In this document: positions 17,635 through 62,703 of the stretch, in pieces | How positions within the stretch are numbered: the stretch's first letter is position 1 | Layout of the letters: each line of letters opens with the position of its first letter | NCBI GenBank assembly: GCA_947561715.1 | Contig: OX387199.1 | Location: 1,741,001-1,805,000, forward strand | Source: Ascidia mentula | Taxonomy: Eukaryota; Chordata; Ascidiacea; Phlebobranchia; Ascidiidae | Direction: 5' to 3' | Length of the DNA stretch: 64,000 bases | The notes under the pieces: generated by a model | Database searches by the model: none | The model's input: the letters and a program-made list of their open reading frames with translations, nothing else | Told to the model about the DNA's origin: nothing | Made by a program: the position numbers and the translations under genes

Positions 17635-20600
17635 CTACAAAAGGCAAACATCCACTGAAAAAATGAGATACACATTCAATAAATTTAAATGTTCTGTAAG
17701 GTAAAAGCATTTACCTGCTCTTCTTGATTCCATAGGAACACTTTCAGAAATTTTGTATTCCAACTCTTTGACTTTTGATTCAACCAACTTTCTTCCACTC
17801 GGAAATAATGATAGTGACAAATCTTTAGCAGTTTGTCTATATTTAACGACGTTGTGTAAACAACTAGCAAAGTGTTCTGCACCAACATCATCAATTGTGT
17901 TCTTGCCCAAGTTAATGGCTTGCATCTGTAAACATTAAATTCAAATTAGCTCCAGACAGTGTCAAACTATCAGGTCTTGCAAGTGCAAGTCTTATCAGTA
18001 AAACTGCATTTGTTTGAAAAATTACTACAAGCAAGACAACACAAATGCTATAACTGATTCACCAAACAAATGTACAAAATTGTCCAGATCACTAAACAAA
18101 GCAGTTTTCATATCACAAGTATTACCTTGCTTGGATTTTTTATGACTGCTGCAGACAACTCGCTTACTCCAACTCTTGTGACTCCACATCCATCTACATC
18201 GAGCTTTTGTACTTTATGTCAAAATTTGCAGCAGTCATAAAAAATCCAAGCAAGGTAATACTTGTGATATGAAAACTGCTTAGTTTGGTGATCTGGACAA
18301 TTTTGTACATCAAGGTTTTGTGAATGGGCTTGCGGAAGTCCGATTTTATTTAGATGTCTATCCCATGAGCTGGTTCTGGGTTTGTCGTCATAGCCAGTCA
18401 TAAATGCTGTGCATATACATCAAAATTAAAACTACGTTACAGCTAAACTTGGGGCAATGCAATTTGTTTGAACAAAATAATATTATGCTTTAAAGCAGGG
18501 TTCACCTAACTTTTTTCTCAAAGGGTTATACATATTTATATATATGTATGTACATGATGAGTGGATCCTACAAGTGTGGTTGGGTGACCCATAGTTGAAA
18601 TGTTCCTTGTGGTTTTAAACATAAACACAGTAACATGTAGTGGAAAATTTTACCCCAGTGGATTACATTTCCCCTTTTCTTCATTATTAACAAGCAATGT
18701 TGGGTTTACCTTGTTGTTTTTTGTATTTATGCGATTGAAGTGTCATACTGCAGAATGTCTTGTTTCTGTGCTTTGTTGGGTGACACATATTGCTAGACCA
18801 CTTAACACTGTCCTTGCAAAAGTTTAATGACTATTTCGGCTTTCTAATAGTTTATTGTTAAGCACCATTTGATGTTCAGCAAACCTAGCATCAAAGAATT
18901 CATTAACAACATAAAATACAGCATTTACTTTTGATGACAAAACTGGCTTTATTGTCTACATACAACTTACTGGTTTCTCAAGTTGTGATATGGAATTTGC
19001 AATCTTACAGATTCCACCACTTGTCATCTTACAACCCCGCAGAGACAGATCGTCCATCCACTGAATACAAGAAGCAAGAGCAGATGCACTTTCATCATCA
19101 ACTTTGTTCCCACCAAGATCCAACGACGTCATCTGAAACAAACATGATTGTTTTATTGATAGTGCCTTGTGGCAAAACTTTTAGTGTAATTAGCGGCAAA
19201 CAAATTTGTGTAAACAAGCTTAAAATGAAAAGGTCAAAAGAGGCAGTGGCATGGTACAATAGCTCACATTGGGTGTAATGTTCAAGTTAGACCGGCAAAT
19301 TGAGTTTTTCATCAAATTTCAGTCTCAACAGTTAATAGCAAGTAACATCGTTGGAGGGCACCCAGGATATTTTAAAGTGTTATTTATTAAGAAAATGTTT
19401 TTTATAGTGAGCTGCAGACAGGGCCACTGTTTCAACCTTATATATCTCATCAGTGCAGCTATGGTGTGACTTACAACGATCTTGTCAGTTAAATAACCGG
19501 CAAGACTTCCATTATGTGGTGACTATATAGCCAGTAACCATTGGGAACCAAATTATTTTTCAAGTTCAATATCATGAAATATGCAGTTTAAAGTTATGTT
19601 CGATAGTAAATTGCTGGTTTCATGAGCTGCAATGTGATGGATTTTATTTTTACAACAAACTTATTCTTTAACTGTATGTCCATAAAAACAGTGCATTTTC
19701 ATTCAAAAGACTGCATGCAACCATACAAATTCTGCTGCCTGTCATACTTTAGTGCGACAGACACAGTACTGTGAAGAACATACAAATGCTTGTAGACAGT
19801 CAGATATCATGAACACTGGTTGTCGATGCCACAATAAAAATAAATCTGCATTAAATCTTTCAATAAACCAATGTTTAAAAATATAAATTTGTATTAATTC
19901 CAATTCTTTACTTGCCAAAAATGTATTAAAAAAATACTATTTCAGATTTGATTCTTCTTTGTGGTTTTTCACATGTGTAATATTTAATGAACACAGACCC
20001 AGTTAACGTAATAAAATAAATTAACTTTGCAAACTGACTTTTCCAAACCAAAATATCTTACCCTTTGTTTGATTGCCTTGGTAACTTCTTGGATTGCAGA
20101 GTTACTGACATTTTTCATGGTAAGTTCAAGTTTTGCAGGAAATTTATGTATGACCCATGACAAAGCACAAGCTTCTTCATCACCATCCACTGTAAGCTGG
20201 TTTGTAATGGAAACCTGTGTACAATGTAACTAGATAAGTTCACTTATCCTTAACATGAGAATAATTAACTCTAGTTAAATCCTTTTAATTGTTGATAGAA
20301 GAACCAGATTAAATATTCCAAGTTTTCCAAAGTTCTGTATGTTAAGAGACATATCTCAATTTCACACAAATTAGGCCAAAATCTGGTTTAACTGAGGCTT
20401 ACTGTATAATGTGTGCTATAAGGGTTGTCAGAATGTTAGTGATTACAAACTGTGCAAACACTCATTTAAATGAATAGTATGTCATATTTTGATTGATTTG
20501 CTATCTTTTAATAACTATTTAAGAATAATCAAACCTCAAATGCTTCTTCAATGTACTTTTTGACCAATGTATCAGGATGCAAACTCTACAAAGCATCAAA

Positions 20601-23600
20601 ACACAATGTTTATTAGTGGATGGACCAATCCAAATGCTGGATGAATAACAATAGATTTGAATTCTATAAATTTTTAATTTCTTTTTCAGGTTTATCAACC
20701 AAACAATTACCTGTAGTACATCTGCAAACAGATCAACCTTTCCACAAGGTTTAATTCCATTCACTGATATTTTGAACTTTGTTACAGTCAGCTTTTTAAA
20801 ATTTGTTTTTGCTTGATCCGAAAGCAAATGTAGGAAAGAATTTGAAACACAGTTTCCACTAATATCTAGACAGTTCATCTAAAAGAATAAAATTACATAA
20901 GTTTTATCACAGAATGTTTTATTTGGAATTATGACCTTTTCAATGTAAGTTTTAGCTTTTAATTTATTGTTAAAACTACAGATGAAAACAAAAACAATAA
21001 AGCAGTAGTTTAGAACCCATCAAATTCCTTGCTTATAAAATCAATATTTATTTATGAAACATTTAACTTACTTGATGTTGAGATCTTGATAAAGCAGCAA
21101 CAATTTGACACAAGCTGGGACCAACAATATTACAACCAGACACAGACAGGTTTTTGATCAAATGAACAATTGATGCTATTGCAGATGCAACTTCATCATC
21201 GATTTTGTTGTTATCAAGGGTGAGGGATGTAAGCTATTACAAAGAGTTGCAAGTATTTTCTGGTTCATGTTTTTAGCCAGCACAAAAACTTACAAATGTA
21301 TGTAGCTTCTGATTTATTGCTTATGTAAGTAATGCTAAATGTATTAGGTTTAATGTGCAACAAAATCAGAAACTTACTTGATGTTGAGATTCCAACAAAC
21401 ACTCAGCAATTTCATGCATGTTGGAGCCAACAATCTGACATCCAGACACAGACAGGTTTTTGATCAAATGAACAATTGATGCTATTGCAGATGCAACTTC
21501 ATCATCGATTTTGTTGTTATCAAGGGTGAGGGATGTAAGCTATTACAAAGAGTTGCAAGTATTTTCTGGTTAATGTTTTTAGCCAGCACAAAAACTTACA
21601 AATGTATGTAGCTTCTGATTTATTGCTTATGTAAGTAATGCTAAATGTATTAGGTTTAATGTGCAACAAAATCAGAAACTTACTTGATGTTGAGATTTCA
21701 ACAAAGCATCAGCAATTTCATACATGCCGGAGCCAACAATCTGACATCCACAAACAGACAGGTTTTTAATCAAGTGCATAATTGATGCTATTTTAGATGC
21801 AGCTTCATCATCGATTTTGTTGTTATCAAGGGTTAGGGATGTAAGCTATTACAAAGAGTAGCAAGTATTTTCTGGTTCAAGTCTTTAGCTAGCACAAAAA
21901 CTCACAAATGTATGTAGCTTATGTTAGTCATTTTGCATGTATTTAGTTTTGATGTAAGTTTCTAACAAAATTAGAAACTTACTTGATGTTGAGAACTTGT
22001 TAAAGAATCAGCAATTTTACACACGCTGAGACCAACAGCATGATAACCAGTCAGAGACAGGTGTTCAATCAAGTGAGCATTTGATGCTATTGCAGATGCA
22101 GATTTTTTATCTAGTTCAATTCCATTTAGGATGAGGGATCTAAGCTGAACATAAAATATTAACTGAGTACCCTTTAGTTTGGTTTAAAACTTTTAATAAC
22201 TTGCTTAACAAATTACATGAATGCATGATCATACCATTTGTTTTATTGCACTGACAACTTCTTGGACTGAAAAACTTTTGACATTTTCCATGCTAAGTTC
22301 CATTGCTGGAGGAAATAAATGCATGACGCATGACAAAGCACAGGCTTCTTCATCACCAACCACTTTAAGATGGCTTGGAATGGGATTTAACTGGTAACAA
22401 TCAAATGAGTTTAGTTGAAATATTTTTAACCTGTTGATTATTATTTTTAAACAGGTAATTGCATTATCAAACATTAAAAAATATTTTCTGATATGATCTC
22501 TAAATTTTAAATGTATATTATGCCACTTTTTTATTCATTAATTTGCTTTCTTTTACTATTGATACATTACAGGATAAAAACCCAGGTTTAGCTTTGGCTT
22601 TTAGTTACAATTTCTGTGTGTAGAAATAATCTTATTGTCTATGCAAACAATTCTTAAGTTTTTTTTTAATATTTGCAAAAATAACCTAAATCGCAAGAGC
22701 ATCTTTTAAAAAATAAAATATTTTTACTTCTTAAGAATATTTAACCTTAAATGCTTCTTCAATGTAGTTTTCAACCAACATGTCAGGGTGAAGCGAACTC
22801 TAAAAGATAAAATCACAATGTTTTAGTGGTAAATGGACCAATCTAAATGTTGTTAAGGTTAAAAGGGATTTATGTGCTAATGATTTTTTGCATCTTTTAT
22901 AGGTTAACACACTTTAACAATTACCTGTGGCACATTAAGGATCAGTTCAAATTTCCCACAAGATTTAATTCTATTCCCAGATCTTTCAAATTTTGTCAAG
23001 ATCAACTTGTTGACATGCGTTCTTGCTTGACCCAAAAGCAAGTGCAGAAATGAATTTGAAACACAGTTTCCACTTATATCCAAGGAGTCCATCTATAAGA
23101 TTAATGTCATCTTAGTATTATAAAGGAAAATCGACTTGAAAATTACTAAAATGCTTTACAAAAGTAGTGTATGTTTTAAAAAGCTTCAGAAACGAAATTT
23201 ATTTTTCATCAGAAACATTATTAGTATAGTAATAAACGTAAAACTAGCACATTGAAGTTATTATTGAATACAAAACAATTAACTTACTAGATGTTGACAT
23301 CTTGATACAGCGGTAACAATTTTACACATGCTGGGACCAACAATATGACAACCAGACAGAGACAGATTTTTTATCAAGTGAACAATTGATGCTATTGCAG
23401 ATGCAACTTCACCACCAGCAATATTGTTGTCATCAAGATTGAGTGATGCAAGCTGAAAAACAGTAGTATTCAAATACATTTCAAGCAATTTTCGCTTCAA
23501 TACAACCAAAGTAACTTATCTGACATATTTTTGTGAAATATTCTAATTTTGAACATGTTTACACAGTTTAATATTTGTTGAGAAAATATTTTCCAACCTT

Positions 23601-26600
23601 GCAACACTATTAATTAGACATTAGGAACTGTTTCTTTTTATGTACTCAACTAAACAACAATCCAAGTATGCTTCTTCCATTGTAATAAAGTTGTATTTGT
23701 TGTTACCCTAGTTTTGTCTTCATGTAATTATTCACCATATATTAGAATTCTGTCTTCTGGTGTACACTTTACTTGGTGATGTTAGCAACTCTAACATGTA
23801 TCTATAGCTTTGGTAATATTGCTTATTTTAGTTCTAATGTCCAATAAAATTAAAATCAATCAACTTACTTGATGTTCAGAACTTGACAAAGCATCAGCAA
23901 TTTTACACATGTTTGGGCCAGCAATATTACAACCAGACAGAGACAGGGTTTCAATCAAGTGAGCAATTGATGCTATTGCAGATGCAGCTTCATCATTGAT
24001 GTTGTTGTTGTCAAGAGTGAGTGATTTAAGCTGAACAAACAATAATATCAAATGCATTATTGCATAAAAAGAATCTGCCTAAGTTTAGTCTGTATGAATG
24101 CTTCTTCTGCATGTTGTACTACTGTTGCACATTTGTTGCCTTCCTTGCCAGAGCAACTTTTATGCAAATGGTTATATTTAAAATTACAAAAATAAATTTT
24201 GCCCTAGAGGATAAGTTTTCCCTTTGCTTCATTATTACCAAGGAATGATGAGTTTAACTTGTATATAATAGGCAAAGACTATTTCTGCATTATATTAGTT
24301 TTAATGTTAAGCACCATTTGGTGTTTGGGAAACCTAGCTTCAAAGTTTACATTAACAATATAAGATACAGCATTTACTTTTGATGACAAAACTGAAAGTT
24401 TTTTATCTACATACAACTTACTGGTTTCTCAGGTTGTGATATGGAGTTTGCAATCTTACAAATTCCACCACTTGTCATCTTACAACCCCGCAGAGACAGA
24501 TTCTCAAACCACTGAATACATGAAGCAATAGCAGATGCACTTTCATCGTCAACTGTGTTTCCATCAAGATTCAATAATTTCATCTGTAACAAACATAATT
24601 GTTTTGTTGATATTGCCTTTTGGCAAAACTCAGATAATCAGGATGCAACAAATTAAAAAGTCAAGAGAGAAGATGGCATTGTTCATGCCTAAAAAATGCA
24701 AGTTGTGAATAAAATTAGTTTTAACTTGCATCCTTTTCTTAAACCATTTAACTAATCACAAAAAACACTTGTCATGACAAGTTTTAACAATCGTGTGCAA
24801 AACTAATATACCTTCTGTCTAATTGTTTCAGTGACTTTTGAGAATGCAAAGTTACTGACATTTTTTATGGTAAGTTCAAGTGCTGGACGAAATAAATGCA
24901 TAACACAAGACAAAGCACAAGCTTCTTTATCACCATGCACTGCAAGTTGGTCTGGAATATAATCAACCTAAAAACAAATTCAATTGGTTTTTACAAAGAA
25001 TTATATAATATTATCTTTGCAGAGATTCTTTAGACCAGAGATCCTCAAATTTAGGAGGTTATGTCCCTTACAATCAACTTACCCATGTCAAAATTTATGT
25101 AAACTGAAATATATTTCAATATCATACACATTGATATAATTATGAAATGCTGGACTTAAGTAGTCAATGTACTAGCACCACACAGTTGGTAAGTTTTTTG
25201 TTTTCTGTGATCACATTCATTTTTTTTAAGAATAGATCTATCATGAAATGGTTATGCCATTGCTGATTCTCATTCATTCCTTTGTGACCAAGAGGAACAA
25301 AAACAAGTTTTTTTTTTAAATTTCCCAAACCTGAAAGACTGATTTCACATATTCTTGTTGCTCATTTCCTTCTTTTAGTTGACCCTAAAAAAGTAGATGA
25401 GTCAATAACAAATTTAAAGTATAATTGCATATTAACCAATTAAACCTACTGTTTGGGCCTCTTATGTCCTCTATCTAACTTTTCTATACAAGCTGTTTTT
25501 TTACTTCCGAAATAGGTTCACTATAAAATAACTTGTACCTCAGAAACACAATGGAGCAAGTCACGTTTTCCAGCACTTCTTATGCCATTTTTTGAAATTT
25601 TAAACTTGGACACAAAAAGCTTGTGAAACTTGGACACATAAAGCAATGGCAACACAGATCTTGAAATTGCAATTTTGCCAATATCCAAAGAAGTTTTCAC
25701 CTACCATGTAAAAATAACATTTTTTTGTATAGTTCATAAATTGGAGATTTGTTAAAAAAAACAATTGTTTAAATTTGTCAGTTTGTAAGTGTTTATACTT
25801 TGATAGAAGCCACAACAGTCACATACTTAACAATCACGAATCTTAGATCTATAAACAGCAAAACAAGATGGAGACTACATTAAGTAAACCACAATAACAA
25901 ACACTCCGATTTGTTACACCCCAGAAAAGCATTTTCGCCACATCGGTAAAGTGCATGCTTGAATTGCAGTTAGCAAACTTCCAGACCCAAATTATCCGAC
26001 CAGATTTAATTGATAAATAACTAGATGTAACAAAAATTTGCTAATATTAAATCATAGAAATTGTCGAAGTTTAACATGAGTAAGTTTTCATATAGCTGGA
26101 AATTAAAAGCGTAGTTTAAAAAAAACTAACAACCTACAAAATGGATTTTCATAGTTTGTATCACATTACCAAGAAATATCCTACTCATGGAGACTTACGT
26201 ATTCAGACAATGCACAGCAGTGATGGAAACAAAGCTACTTCTTAAGTTTTTACCTTGTCTGGTGGTTCAAAAATTTTAACAAATTTTTTGAAGAGTTTAT
26301 TGGAAAAGCTTTCATCATCAATAATCAATTTTCCAGTAATTGTAAAGCTATCTCTTGCTTCAATTACTTGGGTGGTCACATTTGTGCAAATGGATAAGTC
26401 CTGAGAAAGACAAATAAGTTAATTTGCATTTTAAAGATGTCATCTTCATCTAAATTATGTGTAATAATATATTGCCAAACCTGTATATGATTTTTCATTA
26501 GGTCCAGCAATATTTGAAAACTTCCATGATGGAATTTGCACCCTGCTGTAATTATAAGGTTATAGTTTTTTTTTGATTTTCTTAAAACACAACCAATACT

Positions 26601-28636
26601 ATAAGCATCAGTTGGAAATATGTTTCCGGTTAAAGGCAGTGTTTCTGGGAACAAATTCACAATGTCTGCATAGAATGCTGTATCATCAATTTCATGTAAC
26701 CATGAGCAAAATTGCACAAGTTCTTTTTCTTTAAATTCAGCTTTTTGTATAAAAAAAAGGCGCTTGAGTTGGTTTTTCTTTATAGACACTTGTTCATAGT
26801 TTCCCTGACTGAAGCAATCTTTTGTAGCCTTACCAACCTTGTCATTACAAAGACCAAAAATAAATTTTGTAACAACTTCCCATCTGCTTTTCTTTACTTC
26901 CAGAAGAAGTTCAGTAAACTCCTCAAGACTGGCAAAAAAGACAAGGTAACAAGCAGCAAAATATTCTAGCCATATTAGATGTGAGAAGTTGCTCATAATT
27001 TCAGAACTCATGATCTTCATGTGCCAGTTTTCCTTAATCACAAATCGCGCAAGAATCCCTGTTAACGTACGTTGCTCGATGCCCACTGCCTTAAGATCAT
27101 CTGTACTAAAAACAAACTTTCTGTCCCTAAAGCCATTCCAAGCCAATTTACATATCTTGCTTAAGTACTCTTGTATCTGTTTTTCTTTGGGATAATCCAG
27201 CTTTGTTTTTTTCTCTTCTCTTATAAAGTCCTGATCAAAATAATATTTAAATCCATTTGAATAAACATTAGTAAGAGAGTGAAATCGGCCATCGCCACCT
27301 TCTTTAAGACTGTTCCAGATGACAAATGCAATAAAAATGCATTTTGCTGGAACAAAACAAGAATACAAAAAGTTTGGATTGCCTGTTACAACATTCCATA
27401 CTTCATCTTTGTTATCTGTGCAAATCTGGTTGCAAAGTTTTTCTTGGGATTTTTTATTGAGTCCTGAAACCTCAGCAACAAACAATGGTCGGTGATCTGC
27501 ATTAATATCAAAAAAATGCTTTTGTCGTGAAGTGAAAACCTTTTTTGCACTTCGAAGCAAATCACCTCTCATAAGAGCATAGATATAGAGCAGAGGTTTG
27601 TTTGCTGCTTTTGGATCAAAGTTTGTGTATCTTAATTCCCAATTAGCTGCAGCCTCATCAAGACCATCTGCTGTAATTATTACCTTGGATTCATCAAGTA
27701 GATCGAGAAATGATTTTTTGTTGTGTTCTGCAATAGGTGATTTGGCATAGGAGTTAGTTGGCAAAGAATTTTTAAGCAAAAATTCTACAAATGTTGTGGG
27801 AGTATCAAAGTCAATGTATTTTACAGAAATGTAAAAACAAAACTGAATCCAATCAATATTCTTCATTGTGCCAGACACTGCTTTTTTAGTGATAACCTTG
27901 GATAATGTGGTTTTTCCAATTCCTGGCTGTCCAATTAATGCAACAGTGTTTGCATATTCAGGCTTTCTTTTATTGTCAGCTAATTTCTTTGCTTTTGCAA
28001 AAAGTTCTTCGACTAGTACTTTACTGTCCTGTTTTAAGTTAATCTTCTCATAATCTTGACTCCTGTTGTAATGTCCATCTTCATCACTGTATTGTGGAAT
28101 GCCTGCTTTCTTTTTACGATTGTTTGGAGGCTGTACTTCTTTTAATGGCATATCAGTTATATCCAAATCACAAACTTCAATATTCTGTTGTATCAACTTC
28201 TGATAACACACATGTCTGCATTTCTTTTTAACTGCATCAAGCAAAAAGCCCTGGATGACCAGTTCCTCTTCTGTAATAAAATTTTAAACATATTAGATTA
28301 GTCAAGATAGTTTCAAGGTGGAAAGTGTTAATAGGGTATTTGTAAATTACATTTCTATGCTTTGGATGAACGCAGCATTAAAACTGTGTTATAGTGTTAA
28401 AACACAGTACCAAAACAGCATTTCATTTGCTGATGTAAATATCCGATATTGAAACTATGTGGGTGAAGGCCACTTGTAATAAATATATTCAGACTGTATT
28501 ATTTGTTTGCCTATACATCTATCAATTGTTCCATGAATTTGTGCAAAAAATAAATATTATTTCACAATCTATGTAACACAAAGTATCAAAAATATTACTT
28601 ACTCTTGGTAACATTGCAAGCATTACTGCACTCCAT
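17635..28636 (-). CDS. NLR-A: NACHT-LRR protein
   Basis: An NLR-type STAND NTPase, a family of cytoplasmic immune sensors. Exons 5' to 3': 28603-28636 (ATG, MECSNACNVTK), 26481-28270 (NACHT), 26254-26400, 25539-25700 (B), 25331-25384 (C), 24812-24967 (D), LRRs 24422-24583, 23869-24030, 23288-23452, then B 22925-23092, C 22746-22799, D 22235-22390, LRRs 21983-22144, 21684-21845, 21378-21539, 21072-21233, then B 20711-20878, C 20535-20585, D 20062-20214, LRR 18971-19132, a doubtful LRR piece near 18132-18199, and a last exon from 17925. After the NACHT exon the exons through 18971 are phase 0. The NACHT exon has Walker A GQPGIGKTT, Walker B VIITADGLDEA, sensor TSRQ and the FSHLIWLEYFAA block. 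No CARD, death or pyrin domain was seen. The last exon either reads to a stop at 17635 or splices at 17715. About 1,550 residues. Confidence 0.85.
18070..18312. repeat. Palindrome inside an NLR-A LRR exon
   Basis: Bases about 18070-18163 are repeated in inverse at about 18226-18312 with only a few mismatches; both arms include ATTACCTTGCTTGGATTTTT on one or other strand. The left arm holds the end of an LRR-like exon (LDVDGCGVTRVGVSELSAAV then a GT donor at 18126-18131). The inverted duplication begins at the 5' side of that exon, where no normal acceptor with a pyrimidine tract is visible. Confidence 0.8.
21072..21845 (-). repeat. Tandemly duplicated LRR exon and intron
   Basis: Three successive LRR exons (21684-21845, 21378-21539, 21072-21233) have a 306-base period. 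Bases 21136-21394 and 21442-21700 differ at one place that I can see, so exon end and whole intron were copied very recently or homogenised by gene conversion. The third unit is more diverged. Each exon encodes LTSLTLDNNKIDDE followed by NLSVxGC-type text. Confidence 0.9.
25970..26010. repeat. Relic of the GGCCGG-rich hAT-like family
   Basis: About 40 bases (CCAAATTATCCGACCAGATT and flanks) align with 62566-62605 of the element at 62227-62654. Only this piece is left in an NLR-A intron. Confidence 0.5.
26481..28270 (-). other. NACHT exon of NLR-A
   Basis: One 1790-base exon, entered at phase 1 (acceptor TTTATTACAG) and left at phase 0 (donor ACAG|GTTTGG). It carries a linker conserved with NLR-B (PQYSDEDGHYNRSQDYE), the P-loop, Walker B with DGLDEA, the NPNFLYSCFVPAKC stretch that resembles the NLR winged-helix entry, and a helical C-terminal part. 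All key nucleotide-binding residues are present, so ATP binding is expected from family knowledge. Confidence 0.92.
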
Positions 28637-30780: not shown

Positions 30781-30781
30781 G

Positions 30782-30960
30782 GACCTCAGTCGGTAGAGCA
30801 GTGGACTTAGTAAGAACAGGGCCATGAGTTCAAATCTCACAGGGAGCTTAATTTTATCCCCAAATAATGGCCTGTGCCATGGGGCGATCCTGCCTTGTCA
30901 TGCAATTGCATGAAACATGTCTGTGTTTACTTAGTGTCATTATCTGTTACCAGGCCACTC
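30782..30960 (+). repeat. Second tRNA-like repeat type
   Basis: A tRNA-like core with A-box text CTCAGTCGGTAGAGCAG and B-box text GAGTTCAAATCTCAC, followed by a body with GGGGCGATCCTGCC. That body motif also occurs at about 15133-15147, next to the tRNA-bearing repeat at 14771-15085. The cloverleaf is degraded in the anticodon region, so this is not a working tRNA gene. Confidence 0.6.
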
Positions 30961-31334
30961 AAGAGCGGGGACCACGAATTGCAAACCGGGGCCGACAAAC
31001 ACAATTGTTTGCCTTGAAACTATGGAAAATCCATCGTAAAGTGATCTTCAAAAACAGTCCTTGAACACCACATATTTTCTTTCAGTTCTTGAATACATGA
31101 GTTAATTTGACTTAACATGATCAAAAGTATGAAGGTTTGTTGTTTTCTGTACAACGATGTCATCCTCACCATGTCAATATAAACAAATACAAGGATATTT
31201 ATTATAAGGGTAATCAAATGACAACTAATAACTGAGATCGTGACAGACAGTACAAGAAATATCAAACATGTTTGATAACTTGTCACAAATAACAAGGATG
31301 GGTAGTACATGTAAGTAGCAGCTACCATACTTAC

Positions 31335-34300
31335 AGGGTCTTCCAGGTTGGAAAAAATTGTTTTGAAGTCTTTATCTGTGCGTCCCCATTGGACAACAAG
31401 TTCATCTTTTATTTTGTGAACAGATTTGAGTAAGGTTTTTGCCGCAACACCATGTATGTTATTGACACAAAGATCGAACTTCCTTATCTGAAAATAGAAT
31501 GGTATATAAAGCAAAAGTACTATGTTTGACCAAATCTGTGTATTCAGTAAATATCACAACAGTTTGCAGAAAACGATATGTCAAAAAATACCCATTTTGC
31601 TTAAAAAAATGAGTTATTCTCTATAAAAAATTTATTTTCAGTCGAATGTAGATCTTTCATTCATCTGTTTGGCTCCATAAAGGCAGAAAGCTCAATTTGC
31701 AATAAAACAATAGTGCAACTAAATATATAATCAACATTTAACAAGTACAGTTACTGATAACTTCACATTAATACTGTTGACCCTACATAAAAAAAGTGTG
31801 GAAAAAAAATCTGCAATTCGATCAAATGCCTACTATCGAAAAAAGGTCTCACAAATTAAATTAAATTTCAGACTTCAATACCTCTTTTTTGCAATTAACC
31901 TTTGTCAAGCACTTCTTCCACTATTATGAGTAAAATGATTCCAAGAATGACAAAAAATACAGAATACACTTTTTAGTTTCATTTTGAAAGATATAATTAG
32001 TCGCATACAACTTACTGGTTTCTTAAGTTGTGATATGGAATTTGCAATCTTACAGATTCCACCACTTGTCATCTCACAACATCGCAGAGACAGATTCTCA
32101 ATCCACTGAATACATGAAGCAATAACAGATGCACTTTCATTATCAACTGTGTTATAATCAAGATTCAACGATGTCATCTGAAACAAACAATAATGTTAAA
32201 ATATAAAGTTGCTATTGCTGCCAGGCATATTATACTTCAATTGTCTGTTCTTATGGCACTTTGAAATGTAACTTGTATTGACCGACGTTTCGCCTGCTAT
32301 CCACCAAGAAAATGAACCAACCAGAAAAAATAACGCTAACATGGCTTGTGAAATCACATGATGTTATTGAAACAACAGTTGTTGTAAAGCACCGGTTAAT
32401 ACAAGCACTGTTCCTTATCATTAACACAGCGATTGTTCTTGTGGATATGGAGCGCTTCTAGGAAAAGGCGCTTTGTATGATCCACCTCCCTTTCCAGAAC
32501 TTTGGCCTTGTCGAAGGCAATCCGATGACCTTTTTAAGGCAGCATGCGACGATGCTCCTTAATTCTGGTTTTTAGGGCTCTTCTGGTTTCCCTGATGTAG
32601 ACACCCTCGCACTCTCCACATGGAATTGAGTAAATCCATCCTTTTGGTTCCGCTGCTTCCATGGCAATGGGGTACGACAATATACTACGGAGTGTTGTAT
32701 GGGGCCTAATGTAGACCCTAATCCCATAATCGGTCGGCATCCGCTGTAAAGTCTCAAGGAGTGTGGGGATATAGGAAGAACCACCGTACCGCAGGTTGGC
32801 GTCGGGTCTTTTGGTGTGACGGACGATCTTTCACGTGATATCCATGAGGGATATGAGTTTTCCAGCATCGGGCCTCGGATTTTATTGATCTTTTCGACAA
32901 ACAAGATCATGTCTTAGAGATCAATATCATCTGAGACGCGCTGCGGGAAAAAGCCCAGGTTCTGAAAATGGAGGTGGATCATACAAAGCGCCTTTTCCTA
33001 GAAGCGCTCCATATCCACAAGAACAATCGCTGTGTTAATGATAAGGAACAGTGCTTGTATTAACCGGTGCTTTACAACAACTGTTGTTTCCCGCCCTTTT
33101 AATAACAACATGTGATTTCACAAGCCATGTTAGAGTTATTTTTTCGGATTGGTACGTTTTTAGGGTGATGGTTGTGGGCTGTACCATTACCCTGAGGAAG
33201 CCTTGTTGGATAGCAGGCGAAACGTCGGTGAATACAAGTTGTGTTTATATGTGCCAAAAGAACAAACTATTAAAAAAATAATGTTAAAATTTCAAACAAT
33301 TTATGTATTTGTTTTCACAAAAACTCTTGATCAAGTTGCCTAATGTCCATGTATGCTGGTATTAAAATTTGAACACATGATGCCACTTAACAGAAAATAC
33401 ACTGTTTGACCCCAGAAAATAAAACATACAATCAAACCAGGGAAGTGAGAGAAACGCAGTAAAAATGAGTCACAAGCAAGAGTGTCGGCCTAATTAAAAA
33501 GCCAAAAAATCACAGGGATACCCGTCAGCCTTAAATATATATATATAAACATAGAAAACCTGTTGTTTTATTGTTTTGGCAACTTCTTGGATTGCAGAGT
33601 TACTGACATTTTCCATAGTAAGTTCCAGAGTTGGAGGAAATAAATGCATGACCCATGACAAAGCACAAGCTTCTTCATCACCATCCACTGTAAGCTGGTT
33701 TGGAAAGAAATCAACCTGAAAACAATAAAACCAGTTTAGTTAAAGTTCTTCTAAACCATTTTTATGTACAATTTAATTACTTGACAGCAGTACAATGTAC
33801 AAAAAAAATTAAAAAAAAACAGTGCACCGGCAATTACTGAAAGTTGTCAAATGTAAATTTGGCAAAAGTTTGGCTTTTGTATGTAGCACATTTTTGTGTA
33901 ATCTGCAACTTTTTATGTAGTTTTTTTGCAAAAAAAACAAAGCAATGCCTTTTACCATGTATACTTTTTCATTGGTGCAAAAAAAATAATTAGGAATAGA
34001 TGAATATTTATGAACATGAAAAAGGGATTTCTAAACATTATTCAAACCTCAAATGCTGTTGTAAAGTAGATTTCAACAAGGGTCACAGGGTGCTCTAAAC
34101 TCTAAAAGATAAATAGACAATGTTTTGTTGAATGCAAATCTAAATATTTATGTTATCTGAATACAGATGGCCACTATTTCGATCTACTAGGTCTCATTTT
34201 TGCAGCTTGATGTGACCTAATAGGTTGAAACAGTGGTATCTGTCTGCAGCTCACATAATTCATAATATTGGATCCATATTGCTTTTATTTATAATCTAAA

Positions 34301-37300
34301 ATGTTTGGATCAAAATTCATTTGAGTGCACTGTATTTCTCTGAAGCAACAGGCTTTGGATCAATATAGTTTGTTGAAAGTGCTCCAAACACTTGGTTTCA
34401 CGTACATGGCTAATACCAGTTTCCAAGATTTGGGTGTTACTGATATTTTATTCCTTCCTTACATTGACACACTTCAAAAAATACCTGTAGTGCATAAGAA
34501 AAGAGATCAACCATCCCGAAAGATTTAATTCCATTCTCTGATACCCTGAACTTTGTTACAATCAGCTTGTTAACATGTGATGTTGCTTGATTTGAAAGCA
34601 ATTGCAGAAGTGAATTTGAAACTTGATTTCCACTGATATCCAGAGTCTCCATCTATCAGATTAATGCCATTTTAGCTTCATGAAAAGAATTTCTATATAC
34701 CATGTACTATATAACAAGAGGGCCTCATGTTTTTAATGTCTTTTTTATTACAGTTGGATGACAAAACTACAGACTCCAAAATGTAAGTGTGTCAAACCAC
34801 AAACTAACAGAAAAAGGTTATTTTCATCAAAATCCAAAACATTAACTTACTTGATGTTGAGATCTAAATAAAGCAGCAACAATTTTATGCATGGTTGGGC
34901 CAGCAATATTACAACCAGACAGAGACAGGTTCTTGATCAAGTGAACAATTGATGCTATTGCACATGCAGCTTCATCATCAGTTATGTTGTTATCAAGGGT
35001 GAGTGATGTAAGCTAATACAAAATAGCAATCATTTTGGTTTTAAATGTTTGCTATCACACAAAACATAAATATGTTTCCTATGGTTTTGTTTTCTTTTAT
35101 ATATCAGCTTTATATCATGTATAAGTTTAAGAAGAGTTCTCAAATGGCCTGAGTATCAGTTTCAATGTTAATAAAATGAGAAACTTACTTGACGTTGAGA
35201 TTCCAAGAAAGCATCAGCAATTTTACACATGCTGGGACCAACAATATGATAATGAGACAGAGACAGGTTTTCAATAAAGTGAACACTTGATGCTATTGCA
35301 GATGCAGCTTCATCATTCAATTCAATGCCATTTAGGGTGAGTGAAGTAATCTGAATATAAAATATTAACAAATTCTGATTCAATTTGACGACAACACTAC
35401 AACACAGACATATAATGATTTTAACGACACTTTTAATTTTCTGCCTTTTTCAGAATTGCCCCTGAATTTAACAATTTTATTTTGATGTTGAAGATAAAAC
35501 TAGTAAGTTTTTTCGTCTGTGAACATCATTATCATGGCAACTAATTCAGCTGAGGTTTTTTACTTAGCATTCATGTTAAGTTATTTTTTATTAATTTTGT
35601 GTAATTAATAAACTGCCAAACTCAACCATAATGTAACAAATTCCACTATAAGATGTCATGTTATATAAATGCTTGTGTTATCACACCACACAGAAGTAAA
35701 ATCCTTCATTTAATAAAAAGATTTTATAAAAATGGATGTAAACCAGTCGTTCTCTTTATTGTTTTCTTATTTAGTAAATCTGCTCCTGGGTGCCATGTTA
35801 CAATATATTTTGTTTGCTATAAAAAGGCTACATAAGTTAGTTTCCATTGTAAAATGAGACAACATTTTTTAAAAACAGAGATTTATCAATCTCTTGGCAC
35901 ACATGTTGACATGTTGCCGTAGAACCCCTGATGATTAAAAATCCAAGGGTATAAACTTAATCCTACTTAAAATACATTTCACCCTGTTTTCTTTCGATAT
36001 CTTGCCCACAAAAAATGCAAACCTTCTGTTTTATAGCATCCACAACTCCGTGGATTGCAGAGTTACTGACATAACCAATGGTAAGTTCCATTGTTGGAGG
36101 AAATAAATGAATGACACATGACAAAGCACAAGCTTCTACATCACCATCCACTGTAAGCTGGTTTGGGATAGAATCAACCTGTGAACAATCATAGAGGTCT
36201 GGTGGAGTTTTGGGCAATTACCACTAGATGGGTAAATTGAAGCAGTCACAAAAAGAACAACTTTATTCTTAACTACCGAAAAAATACATTACAGTTTGTT
36301 TAAAAATCTGGAAATAAAACTTTATCACATTAACTTTTTGTGGTGTCATTAAATCTATTTGTTTACAGCTAACGAACATTATAAGAAAAGATCAAGTTAA
36401 TACACATTTTCAAAACTATAACACAATAAACTTTCCAAACCTCAAATGTGGATTCAATATACTTTTTCACCAATATTTCTGGCTCCATTGAACCCTGAAA
36501 AAAATATTTATTTACCACAGCATAAAAATGAACGTTGGATCTACAAGCAACAACTAAGCCAAAATCATATTTCTTTTAACCATCAAGAAAACAAACATAT
36601 TTTATGCTACATACATGCTTTTACTAACACGGTCATACAATAATCATGCAATTGCTGTATATTTCAATTTATAAAATAAATTTTCATAAAAAAATACTAA
36701 CCTGGATTTTTGGGAGAAAAATATATTCCTAATAATTGTTGCAGATTTTGTGTTATTGCAATGTCACTTTACCTTTATTATATCTGGAAACACATCAACT
36801 TTTCCACATGCTTCAATTCTTTTTTGTGATATTTTGAACTTTGTTACAATCAGCTTTTTAACATGGTTTAAAAGCAATTTTAGACAAGATATTGAAATTG
36901 GAAGTCCGCTGATATCAAGAGAGTCCACCTAATTAAAAAACAAAAGACGTAAAAATTAAAATGAACATATCTTTTGTAGTGCATGAGGAAATATTTTTTT
37001 TAACTTACTGGTTGGTCAAGCTTGGATATAGTTGTTGCAAGTTGTGTCATTGAAGTACAGCTTACTTTGCAACCACTTAATGAGAGACTTTTTGTAACTT
37101 TTGCACATGAAGCTATTGCATTTGCACTTTCATCACCAACTGTGAAACCTCTCAGCACCAGTGACCGCAACTACAATATTGTGGTTATAAAGCACATGTA
37201 CACAGTGTAGCACAAAAATTATAATTTAGAACCAAACACAAGAAAGTAATAACTTTGTACATCAGTAGCAATTGCAGTTATGACAAAATCAAACAACTCT

Positions 37301-40300
37301 GTTGTTTACAGGTTTAAACTTATGTTCAATATGACCATTCAATGTAGATAAAGAGCTAACATAATGTATTATGAAATGCACTGTAATTGAGGTATTTCTC
37401 AAAAATTAAAAATACAATATGATGTATCTCAAATCTACCTGAAAACTAGTTCACTTACTTTTGTCTGGTCAGTTGGTGTAAAATGTTTAGCAAATGTTTT
37501 AAGAAATTCATCGACTGATTCTTCTTTCTGGGTATCAACTATTAACTGTCCCTTAATTGCTGAGCAAGTTTTGGCCAAATCCTTTATTACTTGAGCAGTC
37601 ACTTTATGGCTGATTAAGAAGTCCTGGCAATAATAAAACAGAGTTTACTCATTTTTTAAGAATCTCAGATTTTATTGCTTAAAATATTATTCTACCTGAA
37701 TATTGAGGCTTGTTTGATTTAACAAAACTTCAAAACTTCCATGATAAAACTTACAACTTTTTGACACTTTAATGTTATGAGACTTTTTTGTATCACTAAA
37801 TACACAACCAATATTATAAGCATCAGTTGGAAGTATCTTTCCAGTTAAAGTAAATGTTTCTGGCAACAGATGAAGATTGTCTGTGTAAAATGTTGCATCA
37901 TCAACTTCATGCAACCATGAGCAAATTTGCAAAAGTTTTTTTCCCTTAACTTCAGCTTTTTGTAGTTGGTCGTGGCAGAACTCCTTGAGTAGGTTTTTCT
38001 TTTCAGTCATTTCTTTACACTTTGTGTCACTGAAACAAACTTTTGCAACTTCACTAACCTTGTCATTACAAAGACCAAAAACAAACTTTGTAACAGCTTC
38101 CCATCTGTTTGTTTTTAGTTCGGGAAGTAATTTGGAAAACTCCTCGACACTTAAAAAAAAGACAAGGTAACAAGCAGCAAAATATTCTTGCCAAATCAAA
38201 TGTGAGAAGTTGTTCATAAAATGTGTATCCAAAAATGTCATGTTCCAATTCTCCTCAGTCACGAATGTTGTTAGAATCCCACTTAATGTCTTTGGCACAA
38301 TTCCTACCTCTTTCAGGTCATCAGAAGTAAAAACAAGTTTCTGATTTTTAAATCCATTCCATGCTAATCTAGCTATTTTGCTTAAATATTCTTCTTTTTT
38401 AATTTCTTTTCCCCTAATAAAGTCCTGCTTATAATAGTACTTGAATCCATTTGCAAAAACATGAGTAAGAGAGTGAAATCGACCATCACAACCCACTTTA
38501 AGATTTTTCCATATGACGAAAGCAATAAAAATGCATTTTGCTGGGACATAGCAAGAATACAAAAAGTTTGGATTGCCTTTTATGACATTCCACACATCAG
38601 CACCCTTATCTCTGCAAATCTGGTTGCAAAGACTTTCTTGGGATTTTTTATTAAGGCCCATAACTTCCGCAACGAACAATGGTCGACTTACTGGACTAAT
38701 TGAGAAAAAATGCTTCTGTCGAGATGTGAAAAGTTTTTTTGCATTTTGAAGCAATTCACCCCTCATAAGAGCATAAATATAAAGTAAAGGGTTGTTTTTT
38801 TTGTGCGAATCCACACTTTCATATTCTAAGTTCCAATCAGCTGCAGCTTCATCGAGGCCATCCATGGTAATTAACACATTGTGGGAGTTTTTTAAAAATT
38901 CGTAAAACTGTTTTTCTTTGGTTTTTGAATCACTTAAATCACTTATGATAGAATCACTCAAGGCATCCGAATTCAACGAATATTTAAGCAAAAACCTTAC
39001 AAAGGTTGTGGGGGTTTCAAACTTAATGTTTTTCACAGAAATGTAGAAACAATATTGGGTTTTATCAACATTCTCCATTGCACCATCCATTGCTTTTTCA
39101 GTTATTACTTTGGATAGTGTGGTTTTCCCTACCCCTGGTTGTCCAATTAATGCTACAATGTTTGCAAATCGAGGCTGGTTTCTACCTTTTGCTGCTGTTT
39201 CGGCTCTTGCAAACAGTTCCTCAACTGATACTTTACTGTCGTGTTTTAAGTCTATTCTTTCATAATCTTGACTCCTGTTGTAATGTCCATCTTCATCACT
39301 GTATTGTGGGATGACTGTTTTCTTTCTACGCTTGTTTGGAGGTTTATAACCAATGGGGTAAACTGCTTTAGATGGTTGATCTGTTATGTCAAGTGGACAA
39401 ACTTCAATTTGTTGTTGAGTTAAAGTGAGAAAACTCTTTGATTTGCATTGTTTTTTAGCTGCTTCACACAACAAGTTTTCCATATCACTTTCGTCAACTG
39501 AAAAAAAATTGAGGTTATATATAACCAAGAATCAGGTTTAACATAACCTCTTTCAATGTTGGGCATTGTTAAATTTATCAGAATTGTTACAGTTTTCTGT
39601 TGAGCTTCTAATTCTTTTTGAATTAGTTAAACCTGATTCTGTTTAAAAATAATTGGTCCTGTTCAATGCATTCAAATTTTTTTTCGATTCAATATTGAAA
39701 ACCAATGTATAGCCTAAGATAGTAAATCTAAAAAAGGTTTTCGTTACAAAACCAAAGAAAACATTAAAAACAAATTATCATAATACAAAAAACACAAAAC
39801 CAATCTGTTTCACTAATTTCATCAATTTTTAAACATAAAATAAATTTACCAAGAGGTGTTGATGGAATCAGATTTTGATTTCTTTCATAGTAATGGTCTA
39901 AATTGTAAACATTTGTGAGAAAACGGTCTTTGTAACCACAATACCCATAAAATCACATACTATTTATGTTCACATCTCCACCAACACCAACAGCACTGCC
40001 ATCAATTTTTGCTGCGTCTGTTGATATGATTTGATGGATTCCTTGGTTGCGCATTGTTTGAAGGTCATGGTTTATTGGTGTTCTAGTATTTGGTGTAGCT
40101 TCTCTTTGACTTACACCAACATTTTCCGAACAAGGTTCAAATTGCTGAAATACAATAGGACTATATTGCATTATCATGATGTTATATTTCATTTTTAAAA
40201 GTAACCTTTGCAATTAACTGTTTTAATGCCATTGGCTTATGACCTCCAGATAATAGCTAACAACCCCAACACCCATGTGTGTGACAACAACTCATAAAAT

Positions 40301-42414
40301 AAAAAAAATTTTTATTAAAGAAAGTAACTTTGTACAAAGTTTACCTGGTTGGGTTGCTGAGGTATTTGTGGTTGTGGAAAACTTTCGGTTTGGTTGAAAG
40401 CTGGTACATTGGTCGCCTGTGGGATTCCTTGACCTGGTTGTGTTGACTGAGGACAATTTGTTTGTCCAACATCTTGCGGTAAGGAATCCTATAATGAAAT
40501 GGTCAGATATCAACTGGTTTTCAGTGTTCAGACCCGGACAGGTAATAAACTTGGATTTGCTGGATGGCTGCAGAAGCATATATGTAAAAAAACAAAGCAA
40601 GATTATTCCTTTTAGGACCCTCCTGCACAAAACAATACTAACTGCCTGTCACAATGATGGGTTGTTTGTTGCTAATTATATTCTTGCTTTATTGTGAGTT
40701 GTGCCTCGACAAGTTACTTAATATATTTTAAATAAGACAGGTGCCAAACCGATGTTGGCTTAATTTTCATATCTGTGTGAACCTAAATTAAGAGCAAATA
40801 TTTATTAGATCGCATAATGATAGTTGGGTGAAATAGCATTGTTTTATCAGCACCTATGTGAAAAATGTAACTAAAAAGACAGTTTGCTTGTAACAAAATA
40901 CTGATCACATATCAATTTGTAGTACGAATGTTACTGAAACCGAAAAGGGCAAGTTTTGTGTTGTTTGAAATTACAACTGAAAAAAAACTTACATCGCAAT
41001 GTTTTTCCTTATAACTAGATGTTTAAGTTGTTGAAAGTTTACCAAAATGTGTTTGCAACTCAACTGTATCAAAACAATTGTAGCTTAAGCAACATACTTG
41101 CAAGCATAATGCAGGGCGGCCAGGCCATTGGTGACGTCACACACGAATATATTTGGATTTCAAACAAATGACAATTCTTAATTATTTATATTAGCACACA
41201 TTTGCAGAAAGGTTGCTAAATCTCATCACCAACAAGTTGTTTTTATTGGGGATATGAATGCCTCTCTTTAATTTGCTTGAGCATAGTATTCTTCATTACA
41301 CTTCATGTAGCAACTATTTTTGCCATGTTGTTAAAAGACATGCTTGGTAGGATTTGATCAATAATTATCCATATCTGGCCAGTCCAGGACTTTTTTGTAA
41401 GGTTAGTAGTGTTTTGAAGTAGTGATATATAAAAGCTTCAGTTTGCCAAGCTTTTTAGGCTGAATCAACAATCTTGGTGAATCTTCAATTTCAGTCAAAC
41501 AATTTGTTCAAATTTGGCCGAAACCAATCTTCCACGCACACAAATATTCTTGAACAACAGCAACAGTAAATGGCTTATGATTGTATAGCAACAATAAAAC
41601 TCTTATTGAGACAGGATATTTTGGCGGTAAGTCATAGCCTTAATGATCACCAAGACCATGCATATCCATTTCAAAAATGCTTAAAGGTTAAATGGTAGAC
41701 ACAAACAAGCCAGTTATTGGTTTGTTTATACATTAGTTGGTATTTATGCACATTAGTACTGTCTGTCTGCCAGTAAAACTGCTGCAAAAATGTCAAAACC
41801 TGAACATAAAGGTTCACCTTGTGTCATAATTGTGGTTCAGCGCGGGAGTGATGTATGTGGTTTAACCAGCAAAAACCAAAATAACCCACCGAGCTACCCA
41901 ATTACAATGAAAAATATCGTTTGGTAAAGAATGCCACAAGCGTTAATATTCAATTTTACCCAAAACTCACTCTAAATATAAATTTAAATGGTTATAAAAG
42001 ATCTTTTAAACAAAAAATTTTAAAACTATTTTCAAGAAGTAATCTGGACATACCCGACTTGTTTGGTTTCGGAACATTTTAGAACTGTCATCATCATAAT
42101 TCTGGTCCATTCTGCTTGCTTTTGATGGTAATTCACAACAGTTTTGATCAACTGCAACTCTTTTTCTCTTTAATGTATGACAAAAATTAGTTTAAGTATA
42201 AGTTTGAATGGTTATAAAAGATATTTTAAACATAAAATTTAAAAATTATTTTCAAGAAGTAATCTGGACATACCGGACTTGTTTGGTTCTGGAACTCTTT
42301 AGAACTGTTACCATCATAATTCTGGTCCATTCTAGTTGCTTTTGATGGCAATTTAGAACAGCTTTGATCAAATGCAACTCTATTTCTCTTTAATGTGTGA
42401 CAAAAATTAGTCTC
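31335..42414 (-). CDS. NLR-B: NACHT-LRR protein with extra N-terminal exons
   Basis: Paralogue of NLR-A. Exons 5' to 3': 42274-42414, 40345-40488, 39961-40144, 39850-39897, 37696-39497 (NACHT), 37459-37623, 37009-37170 (LRR), B 36773-36928, C 36441-36494, D 36023-36178, LRRs 35189-35350 and 34851-35012, B 34485-34652, C 34048-34101, D 33560-33715, LRR 32016-32177, and 31335-31487. The first five exons sum to 2319 nt, exactly 773 codons, which supports the joins. NACHT features are GQPGVGKTT, VLITMDGLDEA, TSRQ and FSHLIWQEYFAA. The N-terminal exons are Gln/Pro/Asn/Ser-rich and end in a Gly/Val/Asn segment resembling amyloid motifs. The first (ATG) and last (stop) exons were not found, so the limits are minimal. 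A Penelope-like element sits in the intron between 33560 and 32177. Confidence 0.82.
32262..33245 (-). mobile_element. Penelope-like element remnant with inverted ends
   Basis: The minus strand at about 32540-32740 encodes a GIY-YIG-type stretch (IYSIPCGECEGVYIRETRRA) typical of Penelope-like retroelements. Outer segments 32262-32490 and 32970-33245 are inverted repeats of each other, sharing GGAGCGCTTCTAGGAAAAGG and ATAGCAGGCGAAACGTCGG on opposite strands. Penelope elements are known to carry LTR-like ends in varied orientations. The reverse transcriptase core is not present. It lies in an NLR-B intron. Confidence 0.8.
33192..33223 (+). ncRNA. Hammerhead-ribozyme-like core of the Penelope end
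   Basis: CTGAGGA (33192-33198) and GAAAC (33219-33223) fit the two conserved hammerhead strands (CUGANGA and GAAA), separated by a segment that can start and end with GCC/GGC pairing. Penelope ends are known to carry hammerhead motifs. The opposite end keeps the GAAACGTC part near 32283-32290 on the minus strand. Activity is not shown. Confidence 0.5.
34170..34260. repeat. Short hairpin repeat family member
   Basis: CAGATGGCCACTATTTCGAT near the left is inverted as GGTTGAAACAGTGGTATCTG on the right, around a ~30-base centre. Relatives with GTTTCAACCT / AGGTTGAAACAGTGGCCATC text occur near 19390-19470, 51080-51165, 52730-52790 and 53985-54108. It lies in an NLR-B intron. Confidence 0.6.
37696..39497 (-). 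other. NACHT exon of NLR-B
   Basis: One 1802-base exon with the same entry phase (1) and exit phase (0) as in NLR-A. Walker A GQPGVGKTT and Walker B LITMDGLDEA are intact. The conserved linker PQYSDEDGHYNRSQDYE precedes the P-loop. Roughly two thirds of residues look identical to NLR-A by eye. Confidence 0.92.
39961..40144 (-). other. NLR-B exon with candidate amyloid (RHIM-like) motif
   Basis: A 184-base exon between the Gln/Pro-rich exon and the short HYYERNQN exon. Its last 16 codons (39961-40010) read KIDGSAVGVGGDVNIN, with the splice completing a further Asn. The V-x-V-G-G-D-x-N order recalls the RHIM core (V/I-Q-V/I-G-x-x-N), but the Gln is Gly here. NLR-A has no counterpart. Function is inference only. 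Confidence 0.55.
41098..41145 (-). other. Ankyrin-like exon fragment
   Basis: The minus strand reads VTNGLAALHYACK and then a GT donor (GTATGT). The G-x-x-ALHYA order is the core of an ankyrin repeat. A related but degraded piece (text ...YYACK, same downstream intron sequence) lies at about 42925-42950. Neither could be linked by phase to NLR-B, and one short motif is weak evidence. Confidence 0.3.
42054..42414 (-). repeat. Tandem duplicate of an NLR-B N-terminal exon
   Basis: The exon 42274-42414 (KRNRVAFDQSCSKLPSKA) and its 3' flank are repeated at about 42054-42172 (KRKRVAVDQNCCELPSKA) with a period near 220 bases. Donors are kept in both (CCG|GTATGT and CGG|GTATGT). The lower copy has lost the CAG acceptor and the preceding codons read from intron text, so it may be skipped or use a weak internal AG. 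Confidence 0.7.
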
Positions 42415-62654: not shown

Positions 62655-62703
62655 GTCGTGACCCTAAAATGTTTGGAAACCACTGATCTAACATACAACT
62701 TAC

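Follow-up and report, generated by a model that had tools for sequence, protein, structure and literature searches.

It is an open question how animals that lack antibodies match fast pathogens, or distinguish self from non-self. The question is raised by a 64,000-nucleotide stretch of the genome of the tunicate Ascidia mentula (bases 1,741,001-1,805,000 of contig C52; here, the window), which holds two neighbouring genes on the minus strand, NLR-A and NLR-B. Both encode putative NACHT-LRR receptors (NLRs), proteins that end in leucine-rich repeats (LRRs). Both also appear to be members of a large NLR family, most of it in clusters, in which the LRR domain would be built up from four kinds of phase-0 exon, called B, C, D and L, the L exons being those that carry plain LRRs.

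How, then, might such a family diversify? The best explanation is probably copying or conversion of exons in the germline, combined with diversifying selection, in genes whose exons are cassettes that leave the reading frame intact. Here, B-C-D would be a recurring scaffold block, and one class of L exons, the P class, would provide the most sharply variable recognition surface. Unequal recombination in the germline, together with exon-sized gene conversion or copying, would be the route, and would be tolerated because every unit is frame-neutral. Selection would then favor new binding surfaces (ligand contacts) on what are predicted to be cytosolic NACHT receptors.

Two NLR genes and their exons

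Read 5' to 3', NLR-A has the order NACHT exon, X2, B C D L L L, B C D L L L L, B C D L, end exon. NLR-B has the order NACHT exon, X2, L, B C D L L, B C D L, end exon. An initial annotation of this DNA had described three B-C-D blocks in NLR-A and two in NLR-B, each with one to four LRR exons after it, and the exon map agrees; the order that it gave stands, but the LRR exon before the first B of NLR-B was missing from it. Its statement that these exons are multiples of three in phase 0 holds for all 29 internal exons checked (18/18 in NLR-A, 11/11 in NLR-B), each of which is stop-free, preceded by AG and followed by GT. Its uniform 54-codon LRR exon needs correction, as one exception, at 23288-23452, has 55 codons. 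The exons are as follows, in window coordinates (classes P and Q of the LRR exons are defined below).

26481..28283, minus strand: NLR-A NACHT exon (NACHT, NOD2-type winged helix, weak HD2); 28283 is the limit of the open frame, not a fixed splice site
26254..26400, minus strand: NLR-A X2, 49 codons
25539..25700, minus strand: NLR-A B1, 54 codons
25331..25384, minus strand: NLR-A C1, 18 codons, divergent
24812..24967, minus strand: NLR-A D1, 52 codons
24422..24583, minus strand: NLR-A LRR exon, P class
23869..24030, minus strand: NLR-A LRR exon, Q class
23288..23452, minus strand: NLR-A LRR exon, 55 codons
22925..23092, minus strand: NLR-A B2, 56 codons
22746..22799, minus strand: NLR-A C2, 18 codons
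22235..22390, minus strand: NLR-A D2, 52 codons
21983..22144, minus strand: NLR-A LRR exon
21684..21845, minus strand: NLR-A LRR exon in a 306-bp tandem
21378..21539, minus strand: NLR-A LRR exon in the 306-bp tandem
21072..21233, minus strand: NLR-A LRR exon in the 306-bp tandem
20711..20878, minus strand: NLR-A B3, 56 codons
20535..20585, minus strand: NLR-A C3, 17 codons
20062..20214, minus strand: NLR-A D3, 51 codons
18971..19132, minus strand: NLR-A LRR exon, P-like (LASC for IASC; outside the P-class counts)
17635..17925, minus strand: NLR-A probable end exon, open to the stop
37696..39531, minus strand: NLR-B NACHT exon, 5' border provisional
37459..37623, minus strand: NLR-B X2, 55 codons
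37009..37170, minus strand: NLR-B LRR exon preceding the first module
36773..36928, minus strand: NLR-B B1, 52 codons
36441..36494, minus strand: NLR-B C1, 18 codons
36023..36178, minus strand: NLR-B D1, 52 codons
35189..35350, minus strand: NLR-B LRR exon
34851..35012, minus strand: NLR-B LRR exon, Q class
34485..34652, minus strand: NLR-B B2, 56 codons
34048..34101, minus strand: NLR-B C2, 18 codons
33560..33715, minus strand: NLR-B D2, 52 codons
32016..32177, minus strand: NLR-B LRR exon, P class
31335..31487, minus strand: NLR-B end exon (minimum extent; may continue towards 31020)

Two of these also correct the initial annotation. The end of B1 in NLR-A is most likely 25539, giving 54 codons, as judged by homology of the B end. 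C1 of the same gene is highly divergent, with 11-22% identity to the other four C exons.

The domains predicted for both genes are those of NLRs: a NACHT domain, a winged helix/HD2 region, and LRRs at the C-terminus. Pfam recognizes NACHT in both NACHT exons (48.8 and 63.8 bits; cut-off 26.7) and the winged helix NOD2_WH above its cut-off in both genes (29.2 and 23.6 against 23.1 bits). NLRC4_HD2 stays below its cut-off in both (23.8 and 27.3 against 33.1 bits), and LRR_6 reaches 25.1 bits, with a cut-off of 23.4, in the spliced tail of NLR-B. For an N-terminal effector domain, no Pfam match with E<0.01 was found in eight stretches that each lie upstream of a NACHT exon, where 5' exons are provisional; Pfam matched neither ROC nor COR in the NACHT exons of NLR-A and NLR-B. 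Upstream of the NACHT exon of NLR-B lies a 220-bp tandem duplication (41973-42411) with a stop-free segment between AG and GT in each copy, which could be a duplicated 5' exon.

The L exon, judged by its profile, is an ordinary pair of LRRs of the ribonuclease inhibitor-like (RI-like) type; the profile matches LRR chains in the PDB with a best E of 1.4e-8. B and D may, on moderate to weak evidence from profile alignment, be diverged two-LRR exons whose borders fall where those of L do within the repeat. The D and L profiles align in register, and none of 100 D profiles with shuffled columns reached this score (a smaller comparison gave the same register). B and L also align in register, from the first residue, with one of 100 shuffles as high. 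Against such a relationship stand the comparison of B with D, which gave no signal (44/100 shuffles as high), the low hhalign probabilities (12% for B-L; 18% for D-L, or 38% in the smaller comparison), and AlphaFold models of single exons, whose predicted local distance difference test scores (B 66, D 58) are too low to confirm a fold. C is probably an 18-residue insert between the B and D pairs. That B, C and D might be parts of an ordinary LRR domain had been allowed for in the initial annotation. The weak resemblance of B and D to LRR pairs leans this way, in preference to an unrelated domain; the module itself found no match in Pfam at E up to 1 (two modules scanned), and none by sequence in the PDB better than E 0.49.

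The B-C-D module across the genome

The genome (195.8 Mb, 79 contigs) was searched with one window D exon and one B exon as queries. Scoring of every candidate from the first look gave 78 matches for D and 76 for B, and the idea that B-C-D is unique to the window was rejected. For 75 of the 78 D matches, a B match lies 5' on the same strand within 2 kb, with a median gap of 490 bases. Joined wherever their spacing is <6.5 kb (a threshold of the authors' choosing), the D matches fall into 36 arrays, 28 of which hold two to five modules. Most D matches are on C52, the remainder being on C69, C70 and C71. A second large cluster of NACHT exons, at C71:14.2-15.4 Mb, has no D matches (the best 95 of 317 NACHT candidates were scored), implying another NLR group that apparently lacks B-C-D.

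Exon statistics were taken from the window and 22 stretches fetched around B or D matches, with exon profiles built from the window. These loci (those named below are L010, L012, L018 and L027-L031) were therefore picked for carrying B or D matches, and only stop-free frames were annotated. At a profile score of at least 40, they yield 49 B, 51 D and 114 L exons, with in-frame AG and GT in 49, 51 and 109, respectively; the five exceptions are two L exons that run off the locus, two without GT, and one without AG at the expected place. When splice sites near the borders expected from homology were chosen blind to phase, the best acceptor was in phase 0 for 49/49 B, 51/51 D and 110/111 L exons, and the donor for 47/49, 49/51 and 109/112. 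Such uniformity exceeds chance, but the counts are not, of course, independent events, because the exon copies are related.

For the C exon, fifty B-D pairs were available; the L010 pair, with an incomplete B, was dropped to leave 49 gaps. A C exon was found in 47 (18 codons in 46, 17 in one). The same rule finds a C-like exon in 0/49 reverse-complemented gaps and in 0/49 equal stretches downstream of D, and C exons as chance open frames were rejected on these controls. Of the two modules without C by the rule, the one in L030 has no likely C; in the one in L018, C takes a 14-codon form whose acceptor is shifted. Of the support that the initial annotation looked for, B-C-D order recurring with skipping in other NLRs of this species, the recurrence is borne out.

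Donor sites differ by class. GTAAGT follows 93 of 109 L exons, while B exons are mostly followed by GTTACC, GTAATT or GTAAAG, D exons mostly by GTATAT or GTATG types, and C exons by GTTTG (44/47). In 11 of the 47 modules the C donor reads GTTTGA, placing an in-frame stop right after the exon, which supports the C border. Regulated inclusion of B, C and D is made possible by donors that are weak and particular to each class, set against GTAAGT in L. One might go further, and propose that the units are splice cassettes, with C or the whole of B-C-D skipped to give isoforms, as in Dscam or human NLRP3. Such a proposal would sit well with the frame neutrality of all 29 units checked and with the division of donors by class. 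However, weak donors alone do not demonstrate skipping, and the conservation of C (good in module class III, more varied in class II) does not decide the matter. As the explanation of these genes, splice cassettes seem unlikely.

Copying has left marks in the DNA at three scales. The smallest is in NLR-A, where exon and intron together form a 306-bp tandem (21065-21920, 2.8 copies, 92% matches) that spans three LRR exons. On C70, several LRR exons repeat at a spacing of 883-887 bases. The next scale is that of the module. A quick tree of 47 B-C-D modules, with 9 of 43 inner branches at the strong support mark, separates three classes. Apart from outliers, which are the first modules of L012 and NLR-A, these largely track the codon number of B (52, 55-56 or 57). 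All three modules of L027 form one clade, as do four of the five in L029, two of which are identical; L027 has a tandem unit of 3389 bp (98.5-99.2% identity), and L029 one of ~1.84 kb (92-96%). The largest scale is that of the gene, since modules 1 and 2 of NLR-B group with modules at like positions in other genes, which implies whole-gene duplication. L exons, B-C-D-L units and whole genes have, on these three lines of evidence, all been copied. The earlier claim that units are gained by exon copying finds its support in the 306-bp tandem and in the whole-module tandems elsewhere.

L027, L029 and L031 (on C52 and C70) appear as close multi-copy arrays inside genes. Tandem Repeats Finder, with a longest period of 500, gave nothing useful on L029 and L031.

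Variable LRR exons common to gene subfamilies

What the initial annotation overlooked were the P-class LRR exons that lie between modules, with their hypervariable, predicted concave codons, and their presence in common across gene subfamilies. The class is defined by the regular expression IASC[ILV], which misses some closely related exons, among them the final LRR exon of NLR-A. It takes in 59 of 99 54-codon L exons, 58 of them distinct. A first look at the genome gives 803 candidates; the best 150 of the 803 were scored, and all have at least 76% identity, which puts the class at 150 copies or more. Their framework is almost frozen. Codons 5, 8, 32, 33 and 35 are very variable, and codons 2, 3, 7, 10, 39 and 52 less so.

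The LRR pattern LxxLxLxxN presumably puts codons 5, 7, 8, 30, 32, 33 and 35 on the concave strand and the loop that follows, and the register of this pattern on P-class exons agrees with the PDB alignments of the L profile. Among the 58 distinct exons, the ratio of nonsynonymous to synonymous divergence (dN/dS) at the concave codons is 1.6 when computed with their own dS and 3.9 with overall dS (bootstrap 3.0-5.0); at the remaining codons it is 0.55 and 0.45. The set of residues at six concave sites differs in 54 of the 58. By counting, these values point to positive selection at sites that the LRR pattern predicts to be concave. In the Q class (18 L exons), codons 32 and 33 vary little, but codons 35 and 37 do vary, and so does the second helix.

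The P-class exons differ little between gene subfamilies at synonymous sites. With nine variable codons removed, dS of the P-class framework is 0.100 within class III, 0.086 within classes I/II, and 0.096 between the two groups. Elsewhere in these genes, dS between the groups is 0.82-0.94 for B-C-D and 0.62 for the NACHT exon. The contrast took 56 of 59 P-class exons (three from genes outside both groups were left out), 38 of 47 modules (20 of class III, 8 of class I and 10 of class II, without the first module of NLR-A or any from L012, L028 and L029), and the NACHT exons of 9 of 10 genes (2 class III, 7 class I/II; L010 was left out). Against the best class III match, 12 of 14 class I/II P-class exons differ at 0-3 of 135 framework bases, the other two differing at 6 and 10. 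The contrast is smaller on C70, where D exons resemble those of class III (dS 0.17, against 0.49 to I/II) and P-class exons have a dS of 0.075 to those of C52.

Some of this likeness extends into the intron. Among P-class exons, 11/14 from class I/II genes and 12/42 from class III genes are followed by repeat-like sequence from +18 on. Among the exons that share this flank, median identity to the best match is 0.95 at +38..+60, 0.83 at +60..+90, and 0.53 at +90..+120. Copying of exon-sized DNA between genes would best explain the low P-class dS together with the shared flank, and from these two kinds of evidence it appears that LRR exons have been exchanged between genes.

The repeat-like sequence 18 bases 3' of many P-class exons on C52 begins CAGTGGTTTCC, and might mark copying events. 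We take it to resemble the end of a hAT-type element.

Could ordinary tandem duplication of NLR genes do as well? Here, whole genes would diverge and simply inherit symmetric LRR exons, with no exchange exon by exon. Module positions are indeed often orthologous between genes, as with the two modules of NLR-B, and the LRR exons of human NLRs are, according to the available part of the account by Hoss et al. (2019; PMC6642158), already strictly frame-preserving. However, this view must confront the modules amplified within genes in L027 and L029. It must also confront a P-class dS six- to tenfold below that of NACHT and B-C-D in the same genes, which it can do only if synonymous sites are constrained. 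It is, on this balance, improbable; whole-gene duplication alone, as a full account, was rejected on the dS contrast.

Suppose, then, that synonymous sites are constrained: the P-class exons would be old, with no recent copying, and their synonymous sites frozen by selection on splicing enhancers or on DNA or RNA structure. Fourfold sites in these exons are nearly invariant, and homology mostly ends within tens of bases of the exon, both as such constraint would have it. Nevertheless, several fourfold sites in D exons split about 25 to 15, unlike those of P-class exons, and the intron flank common to the subfamilies means that synonymous constraint alone is insufficient. This account is improbable, and slightly less probable than tandem duplication. 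That many of the genes are pseudogenes or unexpressed copies whose variability is decay is very unlikely, for despite a broken L exon near 60.6-60.7 kb in the window, the loss of the first half of B in one L028 module, and an annotation by stop-free frames that would under-count broken copies, a stop-tolerant genome search lists no stop inside 78 D, 76 B and 150 scored P-class matches, and the variation is confined to a few codons within a framework that is kept.

Several points nevertheless weigh against germline exon copying with selection on the concave face. The exon models of both genes are predictions from DNA sequence. The P-class flank that can be aligned between subfamilies is short (medians of 13 bases 5' and 26 bases 3', 708 pairs), so that the low dS could in part reflect constrained synonymous sites. 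Codon 30, predicted to be concave, is nearly invariant. The B-C-D module is not uniformly conserved: its mean entropy is 0.35 bits in class III and 0.43 in class I, but 0.89 in class II, above the 0.57 of whole P-class exons, and the second half of D exons in class III contains a variable patch of its own. With dN/dS of B-C-D at 0.74 (III), 0.47 (I) and 0.63 (II) and of whole P-class exons at 0.79, the P-class exons are set apart by the sharp focus of their change, not by invariance of B-C-D.

The selection estimates have weak points also. They were obtained by counting rather than by a likelihood test. At the concave codons of the first set, dS is itself higher (0.325 against 0.109), which inflates the ratio taken against overall dS. 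Further, the list of concave sites was fixed after the variability had been seen by eye, and for this reason four new stretches were fetched as a hold-out. Their 19 new P-class exons (15 on C70) give a dN/dS of 6.7 at concave codons and 0.70 at the rest, and an entropy of 1.21 against 0.19 bits (permutation p 1e-4), although these exons are relatives, some of them tandem copies, and so are not independent draws. Concave dS is not raised in the hold-out, but the closeness of its partly tandem exons applies to this result as well. In-frame AG and GT flank all 25 exons found in the hold-out stretches.

Exon copying with selection can be carried to a bolder form. The P-class exons would be a germline pool of recognition cassettes that pass between NLR genes by exon-sized conversion; cells or individuals would draw combinations from the pool by splicing or recombination, and the B-C-D spacer would keep the solenoid foldable. 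This would be a cytosolic NLR counterpart of Dscam and of the variable lymphocyte receptors (VLRs). We consider it a speculative extension, with little likelihood of being correct as it stands.

Elsewhere in the window, NLR pieces lie on the minus strand at 50673-51002, 58575-58802 and 62584-62934 (two frames like end exons and a P-class LRR exon), which points to parts of other NLR genes upstream of NLR-B. An interrupted P-class-like LRR exon at ~60.6-60.75 kb, seen as two partial profile matches, is probably a dead copy. Pieces of a gene with an RRM exon (Pfam RRM_1) occur twice, at 8420-10780 and 51557-54023, with reading frames very similar by eye, which suggests a segmental duplication with one copy on each side of the window. 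This gene looks CSTF2-like, on our assumption.

Comparison with known systems

Lamprey VLRs have a conserved LRR framework, variable concave residues and a variable number of repeats, and are assembled somatically from segments. The present units differ in being germline exons with splice sites, in the one assembly examined. Highly variable plant NLRs are said to have hypervariable LRR residues that are predicted to bind ligands, like the P-class exons; unlike the present family, they are reportedly NB-ARC receptors whose variability is between individuals. We know of no exon cassettes in them.

For tunicates themselves, the available text of a review of their immunity (PMC5465252) contains no word beginning NLR, NACHT, NOD or leucine-rich. 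Among the papers listed by literature searches (few subscription journals, no bioRxiv), titles and abstract openings gave no B-C-D module and no hypervariable LRR exons in tunicate NLRs. Human NLRs have a similar gene structure. In the available part of PMC6642158, human NLRs have RI-like LRRs on short, frame-preserving exons with borders at a fixed point of the repeat; NLRPs carry two LRRs per exon, and exon skipping is shown for NLRP3. The present family is alike in having NACHT receptors with frame-preserving LRR exons, one phase and a fixed border. It differs in using 162 bp per LRR exon rather than 171 bp, and that part of the human account mentions no B-C-D block, no 18-residue insert exon, and no hypervariable LRR exons. 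Phase-symmetric LRR exons had thus already been described. For B-C-D, of which the initial annotation knew no published account, these titles and abstract openings gave none.

Zebrafish offer a second NACHT family. As far as the available text of Howe et al. (2016; PMC4852459) goes, NLR-B30.2 genes there number in the hundreds, with single-exon LRRs of varying number, and exon shuffling, gene conversion and positive selection act on the B30.2 domain. The LRRs are called not particularly variable, whereas in the present family an LRR exon is the hypervariable part. In Tetrahymena, according to the accessible part of PMC6564038, arrays of 90-bp LRR exons in uniform phase are scrambled between genes by ectopic recombination. 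These are, of course, genes of a ciliate, in phase 2, and not NLRs, and that text does not use the terms concave or positive selection.

An exon type in the NACHT family that combines a framework shared between genes with hypervariable, probable contact residues suggests a way to recognition diversity without antibodies. It also gives a direct handle on the problem, in that the variable codons are named and the copies can be counted. A precedent for shuffled LRR exons with selected concave sites is the LRR-ROCO family of brown algae (Teng et al., 2024; PMC11378527), which, in the part of that work available, has LRR exons in a single phase, shuffling, four positively selected concave sites, and splice variants. 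There, the protein is a GTPase, the exons are of 72 bp in phase 2 with one LRR each, and that part mentions no alternating conserved block. Here, the receptor has a NACHT domain, each exon carries two LRRs in phase 0, and B-C-D stands between the variable exons. The present family would thus work like the ROCO family, without being a member of it.

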